Numbered from the stretch's first letter, positions 4,925-40,819 are shown. The stretch is DNA of 64,000 bases from Acidobacteriota bacterium (GCA_016196065.1 JACPYL010000010.1:1612001-1676000), one strand, 5' to 3'. The notes: generated by a model from the sequence alone, not told the origin. Program-made: numbers and translations.

Positions 4925-4981
4925 GAGTCTCGCATTTCCTACGGATAGTCAACAAACCTGGACGGCAGGTAGTGGCTCTAT

Positions 4982-5083
4982 TTACCACGAAGGTCACGAA
5001 GTTTCGCACGAAGTATCACGAAGGAAGTCTTGGCCCAAAGCCTTCGTGATACTTCGTGCGACCCATCGTGACCTTCGTGGTAA
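4982..5083. repeat. Long hairpin built of CACGAAG units
   Basis: Two 43-base arms (4982-5024 and 5041-5083) are complementary at 40 of 43 positions, with a 16-base loop. Each arm contains four CACGAAG words at spacings of 9, 12 and 10 bases. It lies in the 304-base gap between the ECF sigma promoter side and tRNA-Arg; nothing else was recognised in that gap. It resembles the hairpin at 36196-36260 in design but not in exact sequence. Confidence 0.9.
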
Positions 5084-5228
5084 TGTTTCTGGAAGCGGAC
5101 ACAACATGACCCACTCCCGGATGGCAGACCACTCCTGCGGCAATTCGGGTGAAGAAGCAGACCTTCTGGTATTGCCCAACGTGACCTTTCCCGACAGCGT
5201 CACTCGTTGAACGATGGAAGAGGATAAA

Positions 5229-5305
5229 TGGTGCGCCCTGAGAGATTCGAACTCCCGACCTTCTGGTTCGTAGCCAGACGCTCTATCCAGCTGAGCTAAG
5301 GGCGC
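5229..5305 (-). tRNA. tRNA-Arg (anticodon ACG)
   Basis: Read on the minus strand, the acceptor stem GCGCCCT pairs with AGGGCGC, the D-arm contains TTAGCTCAGCTGGATAGAG, the anticodon stem CTGGC/ACCAG encloses ACG, and the T-arm has GTTCGAATC. CCA is encoded at the 3' end (5229-5231). The cloverleaf is complete. Confidence 0.97.
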
Positions 5306-5438
5306 GCGCGATTGCGCGATGAGTTCGATTATAACGGATACGAAAAGATTTCCGCCACATTCCCGGCTCTCGGTGTCAGCTCTTAGCTTTCAGTCGAAAT
5401 GTCTTCACCGAGAGCGGATGGCCGGGAGCCGAGAAGCT

Positions 5439-7910
5439 TTAGAACGCGTACCGCACTGAAAGTGTCACCAGGTTTCCGCGGAAGTTCCGCGGCGCAAACG
5501 AGTCCTGCACCGCTCCTGCCGTCGGATCTTCGTGATAGCCGTAGTAGTCCCAATATGCCTTCCCGGTCCACGATTTCGCAATCCGGTAGTCGATTCCTCC
5601 ATAAGGATGGAGATATTTCGAGTCCAGAGGTCCGCTGACCGCACTCGGAATCAATGCCTGCGGATCGAGACGCAGTTCGTTGCCGCTCGTCCCAGTCAGG
5701 TTCGCGCCCAGCCTGGCCGTCACTCGGCGAATCGGTGTGACCGTGATGTCGAAGTATCCATAGTGCGACTTGTTGGTGTAGGTCGAAAGTTGCTGCACCA
5801 GTCCCGGAACATCCGGACACGCTTGAATGCCCGGTCCCGGTTGCCCATTGGCAACGCTGATGTAGCAGATCAGAAGTTGCGAGAAGACATCGTTGTATTC
5901 GTAACCAATTTCCATCCCCCACTTGTCATTCGGCTGGATGCTCGCCCCAAACCCGTAGGCCCGGTTGTGATGGAGATCGTTAATCTCGAACACATTGTTG
6001 CGCCCTTCAAAGATCGTTACCGACCCATTCAGGTTGAGCCACTCTTTCACTTTGTACTTGGATCGCAGCCGGTACTCCTGCAATTGTCGCGGGCTGATGC
6101 GCGTAAAAGCACCATCCGCGCTCATGAGTTCGGTGTCAAAGCTGACGCGGAAGTTGCGATTGGGGCGCACCCAGATTCCGAACACGATGGCGTGTTCGGA
6201 AATCAGCGTCTCAGCGGTATCGTTCGATCCAGGATCCACAAACGAGATCGATCCGTCCAGATTCTGGGTACAGCCGTCCGGCAGGATTCCCGCCACCAGC
6301 GCGCAGGCGCCACGCGCGGCATTACTGGGAAAATAAATCGCACTCGTGGTCGTAAAGAGTCCATCCGCAATCGCCCGATGACGAAAACGATAGCCCAGGC
6401 GAGTGCCGATTTTGGGCGAGAACTGATATTCCAGCTCTGCCAGATTTGTCTTTTCGTCCTGCTTCAGGAGTTTGTTGTTCAGCACCACGGCGACGTCCGC
6501 ACCGGAACTGGTGCTGTGTACTGGAGTGCCCAACGTCCCGTCACCGGGCGCCGTACAAGGTGCAGGAAGAGTTGCAGTGGGCGTGAAGACGTTCGCCGGA
6601 GTCAGCAGGTTCGCACTGAAAAACGAACATGCGGTCGACGTAAAACTTACCGGATTGTGCCAGTTCGAATAGTGGAAGGAATCGATGAAACTGAGCTGCT
6701 TCGTGATGTGCCAGGTTGCACCAAAATCTCCGCTCGCCGTGACATGCCGGCCATGGACCGGCCCCGTGGTCAATCCGTTCCGCAGGTTCGTCCGCGATTC
6801 CCTGCCGAACATCGACTGCACATAGTCCGTGACATCCGTGTCCCCACCCGAATAACTCATCCGTGCCGACAGATCCCACGCCTTCCAGTAGTTCGTCTGC
6901 AGACTCAACTGTTCGGTCGGGATATTGGTTCGCGTTCGTCCGTGATCCAGATAGCTGAAATAGGCACTGCAAGCAGGATTGACGAAACTTGTTCCCACCG
7001 CAAAAGTTGATCCGCAAGGCTGGTTTGCGCCTGCATTGAGCGAGAAGCCCAGGTCGACGGGTTGTCCATTCGACAACAGGAACAGCGGATTCTGAAAGGG
7101 ATCGGTTTGTACCGAGTCTCCCTTGTTGAAGGTGAAGATCTGGTCGTAACTGATGTTGGTGCGCGGCAGAACCCGGACGTCAATTCCGGCGCGATACGTG
7201 TTCACAGTGGTGCGCCATTCCTGCAGCAACATCTGTTCCGTACCCTGGTGAATCGCCGAGAGCGCAGGCCCTTCCACAGTATTCCGCGCATACCCCAGCC
7301 GGAAGCGAATATTGCTTTCGGGGCGGAGTAAGAGGTTGTAGTCGCCGAGCTTTCTTCGCGTGTCCTGCAGGTGCGGTGAATTCGCCAACACGCACGCCGT
7401 GCAGGCTACGCCTCCGAATCCGGTGGGACCATTGGCAAAAGGCGTGGTTGGATTGAGCGGGTTCGCCTGCAACGAGTAGTTCCAGACATTCTGATCCTTC
7501 CGGAAACTAGCTTCAAAGTTGTACCAGCGATTCTTCCCGATCCGCAGGCGCGAGACGTCATTCGGGTCTCCGCCATAGCCGTAGTTATTGAAATACAGGT
7601 TGTCGAACAGCGTCCCATGATGGTTCAGGGAACGCATTTCCGTCGTAAAACCAAACAGCCGGATTCCATCCCGCAGGTTCACGATCGTGCCATAGGATCC
7701 CGGATCGCCCGAAGTGCTCGTGATCCGTCCGCCGAATTCAATCGACTGCTTGATATTGTAGCTATCCTGCTCCACGCCTTTCTGTTCTTCATCCTGTTGC
7801 GCAAATGCAGTCGAGGCGAGGATTGCCAGCAGTACTGCCCACGCGAATGGGCGTGCGAGGAGGGCTGGAGTTTTTCTCGTGGATTTTTGTCCTGCTTCCG
7901 ATATTGGCAT
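5439..7910 (-). CDS. MtrB/PioB-family outer-membrane porin of a multiheme cytochrome conduit
   Basis: 823 residues from ATG 7910, which has a GGAGAGG ribosome site; an upstream in-frame ATG at 7961 would overlap the cytochrome gene and lacks a signal. A signal peptide ends at STAFAQQ. The rest is alternating beta-strand sequence rich in Tyr/Asn/Asp and ends in the porin-type signature LSVRYAF with a terminal Phe. The order, directly after a decaheme cytochrome, and the length match MtrB/PioB/DmsF proteins that sheath a decaheme cytochrome across the outer membrane. A CTAC motif lies in the N-terminal third. The likely role is electron transfer between periplasm and outside; the electron acceptor is unknown and no outer cytochrome gene (MtrC-like) is in the window. 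Confidence 0.85.
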   Translation of the reverse strand: MPISEAGQKSTRKTPALLARPFAWAVLLAILASTAFAQQDEEQKGVEQDSYNIKQSIEFGGRITSTSGDPGSYGTIVNLRDGIRLFGFTTEMRSLNHHGTLFDNLYFNNYGYGGDPNDVSRLRIGKNRWYNFEASFRKDQNVWNYSLQANPLNPTTPFANGPTGFGGVACTACVLANSPHLQDTRRKLGDYNLLLRPESNIRFRLGYARNTVEGPALSAIHQGTEQMLLQEWRTTVNTYRAGIDVRVLPRTNISYDQIFTFNKGDSVQTDPFQNPLFLLSNGQPVDLGFSLNAGANQPCGSTFAVGTSFVNPACSAYFSYLDHGRTRTNIPTEQLSLQTNYWKAWDLSARMSYSGGDTDVTDYVQSMFGRESRTNLRNGLTTGPVHGRHVTASGDFGATWHITKQLSFIDSFHYSNWHNPVSFTSTACSFFSANLLTPANVFTPTATLPAPCTAPGDGTLGTPVHSTSSGADVAVVLNNKLLKQDEKTNLAELEYQFSPKIGTRLGYRFRHRAIADGLFTTTSAIYFPSNAARGACALVAGILPDGCTQNLDGSISFVDPGSNDTAETLISEHAIVFGIWVRPNRNFRVSFDTELMSADGAFTRISPRQLQEYRLRSKYKVKEWLNLNGSVTIFEGRNNVFEINDLHHNRAYGFGASIQPNDKWGMEIGYEYNDVFSQLLICYISVANGQPGPGIQACPDVPGLVQQLSTYTNKSHYGYFDITVTPIRRVTARLGANLTGTSGNELRLDPQALIPSAVSGPLDSKYLHPYGGIDYRIAKSWTGKAYWDYYGYHEDPTAGAVQDSFAPRNFRGNLVTLSVRYAF

Positions 7911-33230: not shown

Positions 33231-33557
33231 CTAATACAAGGGCACTTTCGGATCAACCGTCCGCGCCCAGCCATCAATCCCGCCGCGCATGGACTGCACC
33301 TTCTCGAATCCCTGCTGCCGAAGCCAGTTCGCGACACTCAACGACCGCATTCCTCGATGACACATCACAACAATGTGCTCTTCGGGATTAAGTTCCTGAT
33401 GCGCCCGCGTCGGGATGTCTCCCATCGGAATATGTCTTGCACCGTCCAGACGCGAAGCTTCCAATTCCCACGCTTCGCGCACATCGACCAGCGTGAATGG
33501 CTCGCTGTTCTTTTGCAGCAACTTCACTTGTCCGCAGGAAATCTCAAGATCCAGCAT
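33231..33557 (-). CDS. Rhodanese-like domain protein
   Basis: 108 residues: FTLVDVREAWELEASRLDGARHIPMGDI at the N-terminus and the active-site loop VVMCHRGMRSLSVANWLRQQGF with the catalytic Cys, then SMRGGIDGWARTVDP. It is a single cytoplasmic rhodanese domain that transfers sulfane sulfur. It lies downstream of the CoA cluster, separated by a terminator. Confidence 0.92.
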   Translation of the reverse strand: MLDLEISCGQVKLLQKNSEPFTLVDVREAWELEASRLDGARHIPMGDIPTRAHQELNPEEHIVVMCHRGMRSLSVANWLRQQGFEKVQSMRGGIDGWARTVDPKVPLY

Positions 33558-33674: not shown

Positions 33675-34109
33675 TCACTTGCGACCCGCCGCATCCGACC
33701 GCCCCATCGTCACCAGGCTGAGTAGTGCCGCCACGCTCCACAACACACCGGTGCCGAGGCGCGCATTGTGCACTTGCTGGGACGGAACTGAATGCCAAAC
33801 CGTCAGTCCAAAGCCAACCAGGAAATTTGCGACCAGCACTCCAAAAAACATGCGCTCACGCAGGCAATGCGTGTCGAGCATGAGTCCGACCAGAAGAACG
33901 ATCCAGACCACATACGTCGCGGCGGTCCAGTTGTCATGCGGCCAATCGTATTCACCGCGCAGGATGTGCGCGAAAGAAATCCAAGCGAAGTACGCGCAGG
34001 CAAGAAAGCCCATGAGGCCCCAGCCCGAAGCCCGGCACATCAGGTGTCCCGAATTGTACGGACGCTCTGCCGTCGCGCTGCTATTCGTCAAATCTATTTG
34101 CCTGACCAT
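33675..34109 (-). CDS. Four-helix membrane protein coupled to enoyl-CoA hydratase
   Basis: 144 residues with about four hydrophobic segments (GWGLMGFLACAYFAWISFAHIL, AATYVVWIVLLVGLMLD, FFGVLVANFLVGFGLTVWHSV, GVLWSVAALLSLVTMG). Its start overlaps the end of the enoyl-CoA hydratase gene by 16 bases, so translation is coupled. No family is recognised; a role with the CoA cluster is inferred from position only. Confidence 0.7.
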   Translation of the reverse strand: MVRQIDLTNSSATAERPYNSGHLMCRASGWGLMGFLACAYFAWISFAHILRGEYDWPHDNWTAATYVVWIVLLVGLMLDTHCLRERMFFGVLVANFLVGFGLTVWHSVPSQQVHNARLGTGVLWSVAALLSLVTMGRSDAAGRK

Positions 34110-34870
34110 TGCGCTGGCCGCTTTTCAAGAAATGCGGCAATGCCTTCGCGGGCGTCGTCGGTCGCGATCAGTTCTTCCAGGTAGATCTTCTCTGCCCGCG
34201 CCAGCCCTTTGTCAAAATGAATGGCATCCCAAGCATAAATGGATTTCTTCGCCAACGCGAGCGCCGCCGGACTCATCTTTTTGATCTCACCGATAGTTTC
34301 CTCAACCACGGCACCCAGTTCTTCGCTGCGAGCCGAACGGTTCGCGAGCCCAATCGCGACCGCCTCATCCCCGCTGATCTGGCGCCCGGTGAGGATCAAT
34401 TCCGTTGCGCGTTTCTGCCCGACCAGCGCCGGAAGCGCGACCGCCGCCACCGGCGGATAACATCCCAGCTTGATTTCCGGAAATCCCCACTGCGCATCGC
34501 GTGCCGTGAACACCATGTCACACACCGCAGCCAGTTCGGCGCCTCCACCAAAGCATGCTCCCTGCACCGCCGCGATCGTGATCTTTCGCGAACCAACTAC
34601 CGCCCGGATCACCGCATGAAACCCGGTGAGCATTTCGCGGACCTGTTCCGGCAGATGAGCCTTCACATCGACTCCCGCAGAAAACGCCCGCGCATCGCCC
34701 TCAAACAGGATGACCGAAACATCATCCCGGCCTTCGACTTCGGCTAGTAACTCGGAAAGTTCCCGCATCATCGGGATATCGATCACGTTCAAAGGAGCGT
34801 TTGTCAGCCGCAACCTCGCCACCGGAGGCGCAATCTGAATCGTGACCCGGCTCTTAGAAAGTGCTTCCAT
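34094..34870 (-). CDS. Enoyl-CoA hydratase/isomerase family protein
   Basis: 258 residues of crotonase fold. The oxyanion segment AFSAGVDVKAHL and the two acid motifs GGGAELAAVCDMVF and WGFPEIKLGCYPP are present, so both catalytic Glu positions are filled. It is followed by a helical C-terminus ending FLEKRPAQWSGK. The neighbouring BoxB-like oxygenase and second crotonase suggest a CoA-thioester degradation cluster. The exact reaction (hydration, isomerisation or ring cleavage) cannot be read. Confidence 0.88.
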   Translation of the reverse strand: MEALSKSRVTIQIAPPVARLRLTNAPLNVIDIPMMRELSELLAEVEGRDDVSVILFEGDARAFSAGVDVKAHLPEQVREMLTGFHAVIRAVVGSRKITIAAVQGACFGGGAELAAVCDMVFTARDAQWGFPEIKLGCYPPVAAVALPALVGQKRATELILTGRQISGDEAVAIGLANRSARSEELGAVVEETIGEIKKMSPAALALAKKSIYAWDAIHFDKGLARAEKIYLEELIATDDAREGIAAFLEKRPAQWSGK

Positions 34871-34974
34871 GCGTGGTTTTCCTTAGGATCGGGAGAATCG
34901 CTACAACCTCCCACCACTCTAGCGGATACGAGGAATATACATGCAACTATGTAAGTACAATAACGCCATCAAAA

Positions 34975-34990
34975 CGTTCCACGTGGAACA
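34975..34990. other. parS-like palindrome
   Basis: CGTTCCACGTGGAACA contains the perfect 14-base palindrome GTTCCACGTGGAAC and differs at one outer base from TGTTCCACGTGGAACA, the ParB-binding parS form known in pseudomonads. It lies in the 136-base gap between two minus-strand genes. No parA/parB or dnaA gene is in the window. Confidence 0.65.
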
Positions 34991-35006
34991 TAGCGTCAAA
35001 CGAAAC

Positions 35007-36182
35007 CTAAATATTAATCGCCGATTTCCGCGGCTCGCCGATAGTCGACAGCGGATCGCGGGCGCCTTCTTTTTCTTTGATCCACTTCTTTTCGTTGCGA
35101 AGGATGTCAAGCAGAAGCACCTTGTCTTTTGCTCCTGGCAAAGTCTCTTCGCAATGCTGTTCGTACCCGCGGTCGTCCAGGGGTTCGCCGGTTTCGCAAT
35201 GGAACTTCTTCCCTGCCCACCGTCCGATGTTCCGGTTGAATTGCATGTGGGGCGTATAGAACTTCTTCTCGCCCGGCTTCAGGTAAGTGTTCAGGCGCTC
35301 GACCAACCCGGAAACTTCTTTGTGATAAAGATGGCGGTTGTAATCGTTGAGGTCGTCGAGGTCCGCCGTGTGTTCGTTCTGCGGTTCATCGTAACGGCCC
35401 TTGATGCCCCACACATACGCCCAGTGCGCCGATGAGGAATGATCGGTGCCAAACAGATCGTAGGAACTGGAAATCCATTTATTCAAATACTTCTGCATCA
35501 GCCAGCGCGGGATCACTCCCGCCTCCACCACGCGCCGCAGGCCGTCATTGCCTGTGCCCATGTGGAACGCTTCTTCGCGCAGCATGTAGGAAGTCGATCG
35601 CCCCAGCGGCGCAAACGAAGAGTACTTCAACATTTGCAATTGGAACTTTCCGTCACGGTCGACGAAGTCTGTGTAGGTGAAAAAGTCCAACCAGTTGTCG
35701 ATGTCTACGTTGAAGGTGCCGAGCAGTCGCTGATTCTCAAATGCGCGTCGCTCCAGCATCTTCTGTGCTTCCACTTTGCCGGACGATCCGAAGAAGTCGA
35801 TGAGTAATGCGCACATCTGCCAGCCATGCCGCATTTCTTCGATCATGACGCGCGTGAGGGCGCGACGATCCCAGTCGCTGGGCGCGGATTCAAACAGGTT
35901 CCTCTGCTGTTCGACCGATGCGAATTCCGTATCGCCCTGGTAGACGATCATGTTCATTAGCGCATCGCGCATCTGCTGCGTGGGGACTTGTCGAATGTTC
36001 TCCCACTTGCGGCGGCCTTTGTAAGAGCCGAACTGGATGTCATCGGTCTCCACGGCGCCGTAGAGCGTGTCGAAGTGAAACGACGAGACGTCATCCTGGT
36101 TGACGCCAATCTCTTTGCGCCAATCATCAAAGAGACCGACCCAATCGCTGAAGCTTCCAATCTTCGCTACTTTACCTGGCAT
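35007..36182 (-). CDS. BoxB-like diiron oxygenase (CoA-thioester epoxidase family)
   Basis: 391 residues. The stretch GDTEFASVEQQRNLFESAP and the downstream VDRDGKFQLQ are close to benzoyl-CoA 2,3-epoxidase BoxB. All six diiron ligands known for BoxB have equivalents: E86, E116, H119 (IEEMRHG), D177 (RDGKF), E204 and H207 (REEAFHM). It is about 80 residues shorter than BoxB (about 475) and longer than PaaA (about 310). It probably epoxidises an aromatic or unsaturated acyl-CoA. No BoxA reductase is in the window, so the electron donor is unknown. Confidence 0.8.
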   Translation of the reverse strand: MPGKVAKIGSFSDWVGLFDDWRKEIGVNQDDVSSFHFDTLYGAVETDDIQFGSYKGRRKWENIRQVPTQQMRDALMNMIVYQGDTEFASVEQQRNLFESAPSDWDRRALTRVMIEEMRHGWQMCALLIDFFGSSGKVEAQKMLERRAFENQRLLGTFNVDIDNWLDFFTYTDFVDRDGKFQLQMLKYSSFAPLGRSTSYMLREEAFHMGTGNDGLRRVVEAGVIPRWLMQKYLNKWISSSYDLFGTDHSSSAHWAYVWGIKGRYDEPQNEHTADLDDLNDYNRHLYHKEVSGLVERLNTYLKPGEKKFYTPHMQFNRNIGRWAGKKFHCETGEPLDDRGYEQHCEETLPGAKDKVLLLDILRNEKKWIKEKEGARDPLSTIGEPRKSAINI

Positions 36183-36195
36183 TGCTCAACCCCTT

Positions 36196-36260
36196 TTCAC
36201 CACAGAGTCACAGAGAAAATCAGATTCTTGGGTTTGTCTTCTCTGTGACTCTGTGGTGAA
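36196..36260. repeat. Perfect inverted repeat of CACAGAG units
   Basis: Arms 36196-36217 and 36239-36260 are complementary at all 22 positions, with a 21-base loop. Each arm holds CACAGAG-T-CACAGAG. It lies between the crotonase stop (36271) and the BoxB-like start (36182), inside the cluster, so it may be an intra-operon processing or attenuation element. Degenerate single arms occur near 53096 and 59414. Confidence 0.9.
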
Positions 36261-36270
36261 TCCTGTTTGC

Positions 36271-37092
36271 CTATTTCGCTGTGAAGACTGCCGGACGTTT
36301 CTCAACGTAAGCTGCGAGTCCCTCTTTGGCGTCGTCGCTTTGGAAAAGGATCTGCTGATTTTCGCGCTCCACGGCCAATGCGGACTCCATGGGAATCTCC
36401 CATCCCGTCTGGACCGCGCGTTTGATGCGTCCGACGGCCTTGGCGGCCTTGTTGGGCGGCGTGAACTGGCGCGCGTATTCCATGATGTTGTCCATGAAGT
36501 TCTCGCGCTCGAAGATATCGTTGACGATGCCGAACTCTTTTGCTTCTTCAAACGAGAACGTATTCCCGGTAACCATCAGTTCGATGGCCTTGCTCTTCCC
36601 TACCATGCGGGAGAGGCGCTGTGTGCCGCCGGTTCCGGGGAGTACACCGAGATTCACTTCGGGCAATCCGATCTTGCCGGCATCCTTGCGGGCGATGCGG
36701 AGATCAGCAGCCATGGCGATTTCGAGTCCGCCGCCGACGCAGTGTCCGTTGATGGCCGCGATGACAAGCTTCGGCGTATGCTCCAGGCGAAGCAGCGTCT
36801 CGTTGGCGTGCAGGCAGAAGTAATACTTGAAGGTCGGGTCGACGCTCGCCAGCATTTTGATATTCGCACCGGCGGAGAAAAACTTGTCGCCAACTCCGGT
36901 CAGGACAATCACGTAAACATCATTGTCCATGCGGGCCTTGAGGATGGCTTCGTCGAACTGACGATTCATCTCGTAGGTGTAGGTATTGGCAGGCGGATCG
37001 TTCATCTCGATCACAGCGACGCCGCCGTCGGTGCGGTAGTTGATGAGGGTCTTGCTCGCTTCGCTGGTGGCGGGCTGCGTGGTGGTGGCCAT
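36271..37092 (-). CDS. Enoyl-CoA hydratase/isomerase family protein
   Basis: 273 residues. The crotonase marks are clear: FFSAGANIKMLAS (oxyanion), NGHCVGGGLEIAMAADLRIA and IGLPEVNLGVLPGTGGTQRL (both Glu positions). The C-terminus YVEKRPAVFTAK is typical. It is the first gene after the TetR regulator and lies upstream of the BoxB-like gene. It probably acts on an oxidised acyl-CoA intermediate; ring-opening (BoxC-like) activity would need a far larger protein and is not indicated. Confidence 0.9.
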   Translation of the reverse strand: MATTTQPATSEASKTLINYRTDGGVAVIEMNDPPANTYTYEMNRQFDEAILKARMDNDVYVIVLTGVGDKFFSAGANIKMLASVDPTFKYYFCLHANETLLRLEHTPKLVIAAINGHCVGGGLEIAMAADLRIARKDAGKIGLPEVNLGVLPGTGGTQRLSRMVGKSKAIELMVTGNTFSFEEAKEFGIVNDIFERENFMDNIMEYARQFTPPNKAAKAVGRIKRAVQTGWEIPMESALAVERENQQILFQSDDAKEGLAAYVEKRPAVFTAK

Positions 37093-37154
37093 GAGTGTGC
37101 TCCTTCGTGATTGCGATTTCCTTTTTTAGCCGGCAAGATTAGTTGCCAGGCTTA

Positions 37155-37208
37155 CTGCAGATCCCTGGCTCGTCCTCGGCTTCGCCTGCGGACGGCTCGG
37201 GATGACAG
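37155..37208. repeat. Family D repeat, third locus
   Basis: CTGCAGATCCCTGGCTCG ... GGACGGCTCGGGATGACAG, the inverted version of the family D hairpin seen near 22721 and 56451. It lies between the crotonase start (37092) and the TetR stop (37217). Confidence 0.75.
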
Positions 37209-37216
37209 AATAAAAA

Positions 37217-37900
37217 TCAAGGCTTGTGTCGCGTTCTGCCTCTCCTCGGTGCAAGACGTTTCGTGCCGTTGGTGATGCCGCGAAGAAAAATGTCGCCCAT
37301 GCGCTGCGCTAGTTCCCGGGCGCCGCCATCGACGCGCGGGTTGTACCAGGTATAGATCCAGTTCATCATTCCGAACAGGCTCATGACGGCGGTGCGTGCG
37401 TCGAAGTCGAGGCCGCGTTCTCGTTTAAGAGATTCCATGATGCCCAGACAGATGCGGTAGTACTCGCGCTTGATGGCGGCGATCTCGGATCCTAATCCAT
37501 TCTTTAGAGCTTCGTCTTCGTGTGACAGAACCTTCATGCCCTGCTGGTTAACCAGGAAATATTCCAGATGATTCAGGATGAACACTCGAATACGCTCTTC
37601 AGGTTCAGCGCCCTCATCCAATCGCGCCTTGAGTTTTTCAAGGATGGTTGTGAAGGTGTGTTTTTGAATCAGGTAGAGAAGCCGCTCTTTCGACTGGAAA
37701 TAATGGTAAAGGCCCGCGAGCGACATGCCGGAAGCGCGGGACAAGTCGCGCATCGATGCGCCCTCGTATCCCTTCTCGCAGAATACTTCCGTAGCATGCG
37801 CCAGCACTTCTCCAAGCCGGCGATGGAAGCGAGCGTCAGAGACTGGGCTCGCTCCACGGCGGGGACGTCCGGGTGCGCGAGGTGTTGCGGGACGAGGCAT
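37217..37900 (-). CDS. TetR-family regulator of the CoA cluster
   Basis: 227 residues. The helix-turn-helix is EVLAHATEVFCEKGYEGASMRDLSRASGMSLAGLYHYFQSKERLL (about 28-75). The C-terminal ligand domain is variable, in keeping with an acyl-CoA sensor as in PaaR- or FadR-type TetR proteins. A perfect 8-2-8 palindrome lies five bases upstream of its start codon, so it is autoregulated. It is divergent in sense from no gene but lies head of the minus-strand cluster. Confidence 0.9.
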   Translation of the reverse strand: MPRPATPRAPGRPRRGASPVSDARFHRRLGEVLAHATEVFCEKGYEGASMRDLSRASGMSLAGLYHYFQSKERLLYLIQKHTFTTILEKLKARLDEGAEPEERIRVFILNHLEYFLVNQQGMKVLSHEDEALKNGLGSEIAAIKREYYRICLGIMESLKRERGLDFDARTAVMSLFGMMNWIYTWYNPRVDGGARELAQRMGDIFLRGITNGTKRLAPRRGRTRHKP

Positions 37901-37904
37901 TATG

Positions 37905-37922
37905 TTCGAACGTTCGTTCGAA
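37905..37922. promoter_or_regulatory. TetR operator candidate
   Basis: TTCGAACG-TT-CGTTCGAA, a perfect inverted repeat with 8-base arms, overlaps the leader of the TetR gene. No second copy is seen before the crotonase at 37092, so the rest of the cluster may be controlled by read-through. Confidence 0.75.
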
Positions 37923-39751: not shown

Positions 39752-40819
39752 TTAACTTTTGATTCCGGCCATTAGTTTGTCGATCTCTGACTTCTGTTCT
39801 GCGGTTAGCGGAAGCAATGGCAGACGAGCGGGGCCTCCGTAGTAGCCGTTGATGTCCATGGAGTACTTTACGCCTGGGACGCCGAGGTCTCCGACGACGC
39901 GCTGGGCCGCCAATTTGACGCGTTCCTGTTTTTCGCGAGCCAAGGCGATGTCGCCTTCCTTGAGGGCAGCATAGATTTCGTAACAGGCCATCGGAGCGGG
40001 ACATGCGAACGCCAGGATCGCGCCAACCGCACCGAGTGCAAGCGACGGCTCCAACTGGTGCGCGGCGCCGACCATGACCTGGAAGCCAACTTCTTTTTGA
40101 CGCGTCTTCAGTTTGCCGACGACAGACACAGCCGCCGAGGAAGGCTTGGTTGTGCCGCCGAGGCTTTCGACGGAAACCATTTGTCCGCCATGGGAAGTGT
40201 CGGAGGCCGCCGCTTTCAGCATGCGCGGAGTGACAGCGTCGAAGGTCTCGGTGACGACGGCGGAACGCTTTATCTGGCGCGTGCCGTCAACCATCTGCTT
40301 GACCTTCTCAAGATTTCCGCTCGATTCTTTGATCGCCACAATGTTGGGATGGCCGGCAAGTTCGACAACGATCTCAGCGGGAATGTCGTATCCAGTGGCT
40401 TGCGGAAAGTTGTAAATAACAATCGGTAGAGGAGAACTGTCGGCCACGGTGCGATAGAACGCGAGGATGTTTGCAGGGAGCATCTGCTTCTTGTAGTAAT
40501 GCGGCGTGCGCACCATGGCGGCGTCGTACCCGAGTCCGGCAGCGTAGTCGGTGAGTTTAAGAGTCTCAACCGCCGATTCGATGCCCGTGCCGGCAATCAT
40601 GACTTTGTTCGGGGCCGCAGCGGCGAGCGCGGTCTTCAAGACATCACGACGTTCGTGATCGGAGAGCAGGATGGCTTCTCCGGTTGATCCCAGCACGACG
40701 ATGCCGGCAGCGGGCGTGCGGGAGTAACGCTCCACGTTGGATTCAAGCTTCTTGTGATAGACGTTACCGTCGGGATAGAAGGGCGTTGAGATGGGAGGAA
40801 AGATTCCGTGAAGCAGCAT
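39752..40819 (-). CDS. DapA-family lyase/synthase with an unusual insertion
   Basis: 355 residues; usual length is about 295-300. The fold marks are present: GIFPPISTPFYPDGNV, the GSTGEAILLS phosphate loop, YNFPQATGYDIP with the Tyr, and Schiff-base Lys in PNIVAIKESSGN. About 50 extra residues (SAVVTETFDAVTP ... KTRQKEVGFQVM) lie between the Lys strand and the usual 'LxxG' strand. The family includes dihydrodipicolinate synthase, HOGA-type aldolases and others; no enzyme can be named. Confidence 0.85.
   Translation of the reverse strand: MLLHGIFPPISTPFYPDGNVYHKKLESNVERYSRTPAAGIVVLGSTGEAILLSDHERRDVLKTALAAAAPNKVMIAGTGIESAVETLKLTDYAAGLGYDAAMVRTPHYYKKQMLPANILAFYRTVADSSPLPIVIYNFPQATGYDIPAEIVVELAGHPNIVAIKESSGNLEKVKQMVDGTRQIKRSAVVTETFDAVTPRMLKAAASDTSHGGQMVSVESLGGTTKPSSAAVSVVGKLKTRQKEVGFQVMVGAAHQLEPSLALGAVGAILAFACPAPMACYEIYAALKEGDIALAREKQERVKLAAQRVVGDLGVPGVKYSMDINGYYGGPARLPLLPLTAEQKSEIDKLMAGIKS

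Follow-up and report, generated by a model that had tools for sequence, protein, structure and literature searches.

How can a BoxB-like diiron oxygenase serve a pathway when neither BoxA nor BoxC is encoded alongside it, which protein then reduces the diiron centre, and what is the minimum crotonase that can open an epoxide? These questions are raised by a gene cluster in a 64,000-nucleotide (nt) stretch of DNA, here called the window, from the soil acidobacterium Acidobacteriota bacterium GCA_016196065.1 (JACPYL010000010.1:1612001-1676000), whose genome (G000) comprises 5.53 Mb and is 100% complete. We identify in the cluster a variant of the established aerobic benzoyl-coenzyme A (CoA) or box pathway that is real, conserved and new. 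The shorter oxygenase, together with the lack of a dedicated reductase and of a full-size ring-opening enzyme, suggests a simpler version of this pathway, by which other bacteria cleave benzoate-like rings using oxygen, and we see the chances as evenly balanced that an acidobacterial form of the pathway has its core in this cluster.

An earlier note on this DNA had described a TetR gene, a crotonase gene, a BoxB-like gene and a second crotonase gene at 34094-37900. All four are present at these positions on the minus strand, and the class of the diiron enzyme and the operon are evident from the comparisons below (lengths in amino acids, aa):

37217..37900, minus strand: TetR-family regulator P0004, 227 aa, with TetR_N and TetR_C_24 domains; conserved first gene of the operon
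36271..37092, minus strand: single-domain crotonase ECH1 (P0003), 273 aa; most closely related to 2PPY and to the catalytic half of BoxC; C93, E124, E145 and N97-E-T
35007..36182, minus strand: compact BoxB-like diiron oxygenase P0001, 391 aa; ligands E86, E116, H119, D175, E204 and H207
34094..34870, minus strand: crotonase Cro2 (P0002), 258 aa; nearest to cyclohexa-1,5-dienecarbonyl-CoA hydratase

The compact oxygenase

The P0001 gene is single-copy in the source genome. PaaA_PaaC is the sole Pfam match of its product. With the models for BoxB (TIGR03225) and PaaA (TIGR02156) it reaches 228.3 and 39.8 bits, below the respective cut-offs of 499.1 and 280 bits. The closest solved structures are BoxB (3PER), then Sulfolobus 4MUD, then PaaA. 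BoxB was also the top match in a fold search with an AlphaFold model, which was of low confidence (the AlphaFold models had pLDDT values of 52 and 46 and were used for the fold search only).

A phmmer alignment to 3PER pairs E86/E116/H119/D175/E204/H207 of P0001 with E120/E150/H153/D211/E240/H243 of BoxB, which are the diiron ligands reported in the 2011 structure paper. The six ligands (E/E/H/D/E/H) are invariant in 35/35 compact family members and are not misaligned, which bears out what the earlier note had claimed. P0001 residues 83-94 read GDTEFASVEQQR, and the BoxB-specific block QGDTE..S.EQQ is present. Also as claimed, P0001 is approximately 80 residues shorter than BoxB, with parts of both the N- and the C-terminus missing. 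The length gap lies outside the four-helix core, with fewer residues before the first ligand, E86, and a median of 172 versus 231 residues after the last, H207, and the ligand spacings within the core are equal or nearly equal in compact and canonical proteins.

Around the ligands, the shell residues Q82, G83, D84, T85, S89, E91, Q92, Q93, W164, D177 and F190 are identical in all 35 compact proteins and in 11-12 canonical BoxB proteins; several of them are altered in a third BoxB-like clade and most in PaaA. Because all checked BoxB shell residues are identical, P0001 would act on benzoyl-CoA or a close analogue, and this is the main sequence argument for that substrate.

The tree recovers canonical BoxB and the third clade as one group each, both at 100/100, and P0001 falls outside both; the compact proteins form a grade, the root of which is uncertain. 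P0001 belongs to a separate family of shorter BoxB-like proteins with a wide distribution in Terriglobia. Homologues were found in 43 of the 61 relatives searched, a count that takes in a few canonical BoxB proteins and weak PaaA-type matches. Among 396 acidobacterial genomes sampled, 18 carry the compact form, 65 the canonical-size form and 22 the third clade. A plasmid scan returned only canonical BoxB and PaaA matches, and from the contig scan described below only Terriglobales matches were kept, so that coverage is confined to acidobacterial genomes.

Proteins of the third clade (L204-L212, L217, L218; 22/396 genomes) are approximately 420-450 aa long and keep all six ligands. Their shell carries the changes S84, H93, V177, F164 and Y190, ECH1 is present in 22/22 of these genomes, and the clade probably acts on a different substrate.

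ECH1 and the catalytic half of BoxC

The earlier note had called both flanking crotonases ordinary in length. Their lengths of 273 and 258 aa agree with this, but ECH1 is no ordinary crotonase in other respects: among single-domain proteins it is the one most closely related to BoxC and its catalytic half. Its best match in the Protein Data Bank (PDB) is 2PPY, with 238 bits compared to 169 for the next, and an FC...NET motif is common to both; 2PPY is also the best non-BoxC match of BoxC itself. In the crotonase tree, ECH1, 2PPY and BoxC form one clade (100/99), and PaaF, PaaG, Cro2 and the other sampled crotonases stand apart. C93, E124 and E145 of ECH1 align with C111, E146 and E168 of BoxC, and the NET and N-x-Y motifs are kept as well. 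Cys111, Glu146 and Glu168 are the catalytic residues of BoxC reported in the 2009 structure paper. BoxC has a two-domain structure with its active centre in the N-terminal domain only (PMC4498308).

With one domain, 273 aa and 88 bits against the BoxC model TIGR03222 (cut-off 712), ECH1 does not qualify as BoxC; the next crotonase of the source genome scores 44 bits. Wherever a genome from the window's family or order carries compact BoxB, ECH1 is its top BoxC match (approximately 78-97 bits), and the ECH1 gene nearly always adjoins the oxygenase gene. BoxB-like proteins occur in 105 of the 396 genomes, ECH1 in 75 and both in 67 (Fisher p 4e-39, uncorrected for phylogeny), and on this co-occurrence, together with its place in several operons with canonical BoxC and BoxB, we assign ECH1 as a box-pathway crotonase in general.

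BoxA, BoxC and the electron donor

The earlier note had seen no BoxA and no BoxC-size protein near the cluster, and neither is encoded over cut-off anywhere in the source genome, in which the top BoxA match (57.8 bits, L031) covers no more than the flavin/NAD portion of a reductase that stands alone. BoxA over cut-off was found in none of the 33 genomes tested, which included three acidobacteria with canonical BoxB and BoxC. Because these three canonical-BoxB acidobacteria also lack BoxA, its absence is uninformative on the substrate, and we rejected it as a sign of a new one. Among the genomes examined, full BoxC turned up solely in those with canonical BoxB.

In five distant compact-BoxB genomes, NuoF-like and NuoE/2Fe-2S-ferredoxin-like genes (L054, L190, L191, L197, L198) adjoin the oxygenase gene; in a sixth (G056) only the NuoE-like gene does so and the NuoF-like copy is unlinked. 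The linked NuoF-like proteins and the G056 copy branch together as one clade, to the exclusion of all remaining NuoF-type sequences from the genomes sampled (quick tree, SH-aLRT 100), and the linked pair is a candidate for the dedicated reductase of compact BoxB in these distant families. No such pair adjoins the oxygenase in the window's family, and we rejected a NuoF/NuoE-like donor for P0001 because the best homologue in the source genome falls among its relatives' NuoF-type proteins and outside the linked clade. Directly downstream of the NuoF-like gene in one genome (G052, L054 approximately 4936-5709) lies a gene for another, distantly related member of the PaaA/PaaC family (26% identity).

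The regulator and its operator

The perfect palindromic operator that the earlier note had proposed for the TetR gene was recovered:

37905..37922, strand not given: TetR operator TTCGAACG-TT-CGTTCGAA, with perfect 8-bp arms and a 2-nt centre, 5 bp upstream of the TetR start codon

Of the 81 loci that encode a TetR homologue, 76 contain the 12-bp core GAACGAACGTTC of this operator, in most cases directly upstream of the TetR start. The exact 13-mer has two copies in the source genome, the second of which (L293) is away from any obvious promoter. In three other acidobacterial genomes (L215, L358, L360), the core lies directly upstream of canonical boxC, and TetR homologues with 39-41% identity are encoded in the same three genomes (L358, L360; G241: L215 and L346). 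Because the operator core also precedes canonical boxC, the signals to which the compact and the canonical systems respond would be related, an aryl-CoA being the probable one.

The operon in relatives

The contig scan yielded 80 Terriglobales loci with a conserved operon, usually in the order TetR, ECH1, aldehyde dehydrogenase, BoxB-like oxygenase, often a glutaconate-CoA-transferase-like B subunit, Cro2, often the A subunit, rhodanese, the gamma, alpha and beta subunits of 4-hydroxybenzoyl-CoA reductase (HCR), and amidohydrolase. All three HCR subunits are thus encoded in relatives' operons. The alpha subunit reaches 1041.9 bits (NCBIfam cut-off 994.55) and 833 bits to 1RM6, and the beta subunit keeps all four cysteines of the loop that binds a 4Fe-4S cluster in the known enzyme. 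On these features, we consider the reductase a genuine 4-hydroxybenzoyl-CoA reductase. The product of this enzyme is benzoyl-CoA. Within the window's genus, the operon often lacks the aldehyde dehydrogenase and the reductase genes, and from the source genome the reductase has been lost. Benzoate-CoA ligase is encoded over cut-off in several of 21 genomes tested. A reading of the CoA-transferase-like genes as the steroid ring-cleaving IpdAB was rejected, glutaconate CoA-transferase being a far better fit.

Further features of the window at this locus are as follows:

36196..36260, strand not given: perfect 22-nt inverted repeat TTCACCACAGAGTCACAGAGAA in the gap between the ECH1 and BoxB-like genes
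33675..34109, minus strand: small conserved membrane-type protein; 16-nt overlap between its start and the end of Cro2
33231..33557, minus strand: rhodanese-domain protein, a conserved downstream operon gene, 65% to the copy of a relative

The small membrane-type gene probably belongs to the operon. The inverted repeat, of which the window holds no second close copy, occupies the site where many relatives have the aldehyde dehydrogenase gene. A DapA-family gene (window 39752-40819) is kept upstream of the operon across relatives and has an extra stretch inserted in the middle of the protein. One genome (G055, L291 5626-15372) has the TetR-ECH1-aldehyde dehydrogenase-...-reductase-amidohydrolase operon under the same operator with a PaaG-like crotonase in place of the oxygenase, and encodes canonical BoxB and BoxC on a separate contig.

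Proposed pathway and alternatives

For the substrate, electron donor, ring-opening enzyme and regulator ligand, we infer the following scheme. TetR would be bound to the palindrome until accumulation of an aryl-CoA ester releases it. With electrons from a donor other than BoxA that is encoded elsewhere, the compact diiron enzyme would convert benzoyl-CoA, or a close aryl-CoA, to the 2,3-epoxide by inserting one of the atoms of O2. Hydrolytic ring opening would be performed not by BoxC but by one of the flanking single-domain crotonases, most likely ECH1, and would yield a CoA-bound semialdehyde that would be oxidised by the aldehyde dehydrogenase of the operon in relatives and by one encoded elsewhere in the source genome, and Cro2 may isomerise or hydrate the product towards beta-oxidation. 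In relatives, benzoyl-CoA would be supplied by the HCR of the same operon. Taken as a whole, namely as a reduced box pathway with a compact single-component epoxidase that works without BoxA, a single-domain crotonase that replaces BoxC in ring opening, a supply by HCR in many relatives and reduction by a dedicated NuoF/NuoE-like diaphorase in some lineages, this scheme is put forward tentatively, at somewhat less than an even chance.

Several observations weigh against it. ECH1 also occurs within operons with canonical BoxC and BoxB (L350-L357), where it would do something other than replace BoxC, and this weakens the view that ECH1 is simply a short BoxC. Ser, Ala or Gly stands at the position of the ECH1 Cys in several distant compact-BoxB genomes, and 2 of the 18 compact-BoxB genomes lack ECH1. 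The source genome encodes no HCR alpha at the threshold used and no benzoate-CoA ligase over cut-off, and we identified no electron donor in it. Several of the operons with canonical genes, all in other Acidobacteriota, run BoxC, BoxB, ECH1 and then aldehyde dehydrogenase and/or 3-hydroxyacyl-CoA dehydrogenase, an order that favours a box-type pathway in which ECH1 acts downstream, in the isomerisation or hydration of 3,4-dehydroadipyl-CoA, with ring opening left to Cro2 or an unlinked crotonase. Cro2 is conserved next to the oxygenase across family and order, and its best family, TIGR03189 (cyclohexa-1,5-dienecarbonyl-CoA hydratase), has a ring-containing dienoyl-CoA as substrate; however, Cro2 does not reach the cut-off of that family (164 bits compared to 292.5), has neither the Cys of BoxC nor the NET motif, and is distant from BoxC in the tree. 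We regard this division of labour as possible but rather unlikely, and for ring opening in compact systems without BoxC, ECH1 would be the best candidate and Cro2 its rival.

The earlier note had favoured a substrate other than benzoyl-CoA, and P0001 could indeed epoxidise a different CoA ester, either a substituted aryl-CoA or a non-aromatic enoyl-CoA. Its separate clade and shorter termini are in line with this, as are the lack of HCR and benzoate-CoA ligase over cut-off in the source genome and the extra amidohydrolase and CoA-transferase pair in relatives' operons. Against it stand the checked BoxB shell residues, which are unchanged in the compact family, the HCR of relatives' operons, which yields benzoyl-CoA, and the operator shared with canonical boxC operons; the missing BoxA does not count for it. 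Because the shell residues are kept and the operator is common to canonical boxC, benzoyl-CoA or a close analogue is favoured over an unrelated substrate, and we consider another ester unlikely. Far less probable still is an ordinary canonical BoxB with boxA and boxC elsewhere in the genome: the homology to BoxB does extend over most of P0001, but the complete genome encodes no BoxA or full BoxC over cut-off and P0001 lies well below the BoxB cut-off and outside the canonical clade. We therefore ruled this explanation out, in agreement with the earlier view of P0001 as a BoxB variant, with neither nesting in canonical BoxB nor boxA elsewhere being seen.

Acidobacteria are abundant in soil and peat, and an operon joining the epoxidase with HCR would be a plausible acidobacterial route for lignin-derived aromatics. 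The compact forms, if ancestral, would reveal the origin of canonical BoxB and of two-domain BoxC. Alpha- and Betaproteobacteria are the groups in which the box pathway has been investigated experimentally (PMC10803450), and our search of the non-subscription literature found no paper joining BoxB with Acidobacteria or HCR with the box pathway.

Comparison with known systems

Compared with BoxB (TIGR03225; 3PER/3PM5), P0001 is likewise a single-polypeptide oxygenase with the six ligands, the QGDTExxSxEQQ block and the equivalents of W164, D177 and F190, whereas it is shorter at both ends, stands outside the canonical clade and below the family cut-off, and belongs to a genome without BoxA or full BoxC. 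ECH1 groups with the catalytic N-terminal half of BoxC (PDB 2W3P) and has the equivalents of C111, E146 and E168; unlike BoxC, which has two crotonase-fold domains in approximately 550 aa, it has no second crotonase domain, and it coexists with BoxC in some operons. The FC...NET motif is shared with 2PPY, a Geobacillus kaustophilus protein named enoyl-CoA hydratase.

4-Hydroxybenzoyl-CoA reductase is known from anaerobic aromatic metabolism. The reductase in relatives' operons resembles HcrABC (1RM6) in its three subunits, in an alpha subunit over cut-off and in a beta subunit with the four loop cysteines, but unlike in the known setting it adjoins an oxygenase, and the source genome has none. 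P0001 differs from PaaA of phenylacetyl-CoA epoxidase in its shell residues, in having no paaB or paaC neighbours and in scoring far below the TIGR02156 cut-off, and it shares with PaaA the same fold and the same pattern of diiron ligands.

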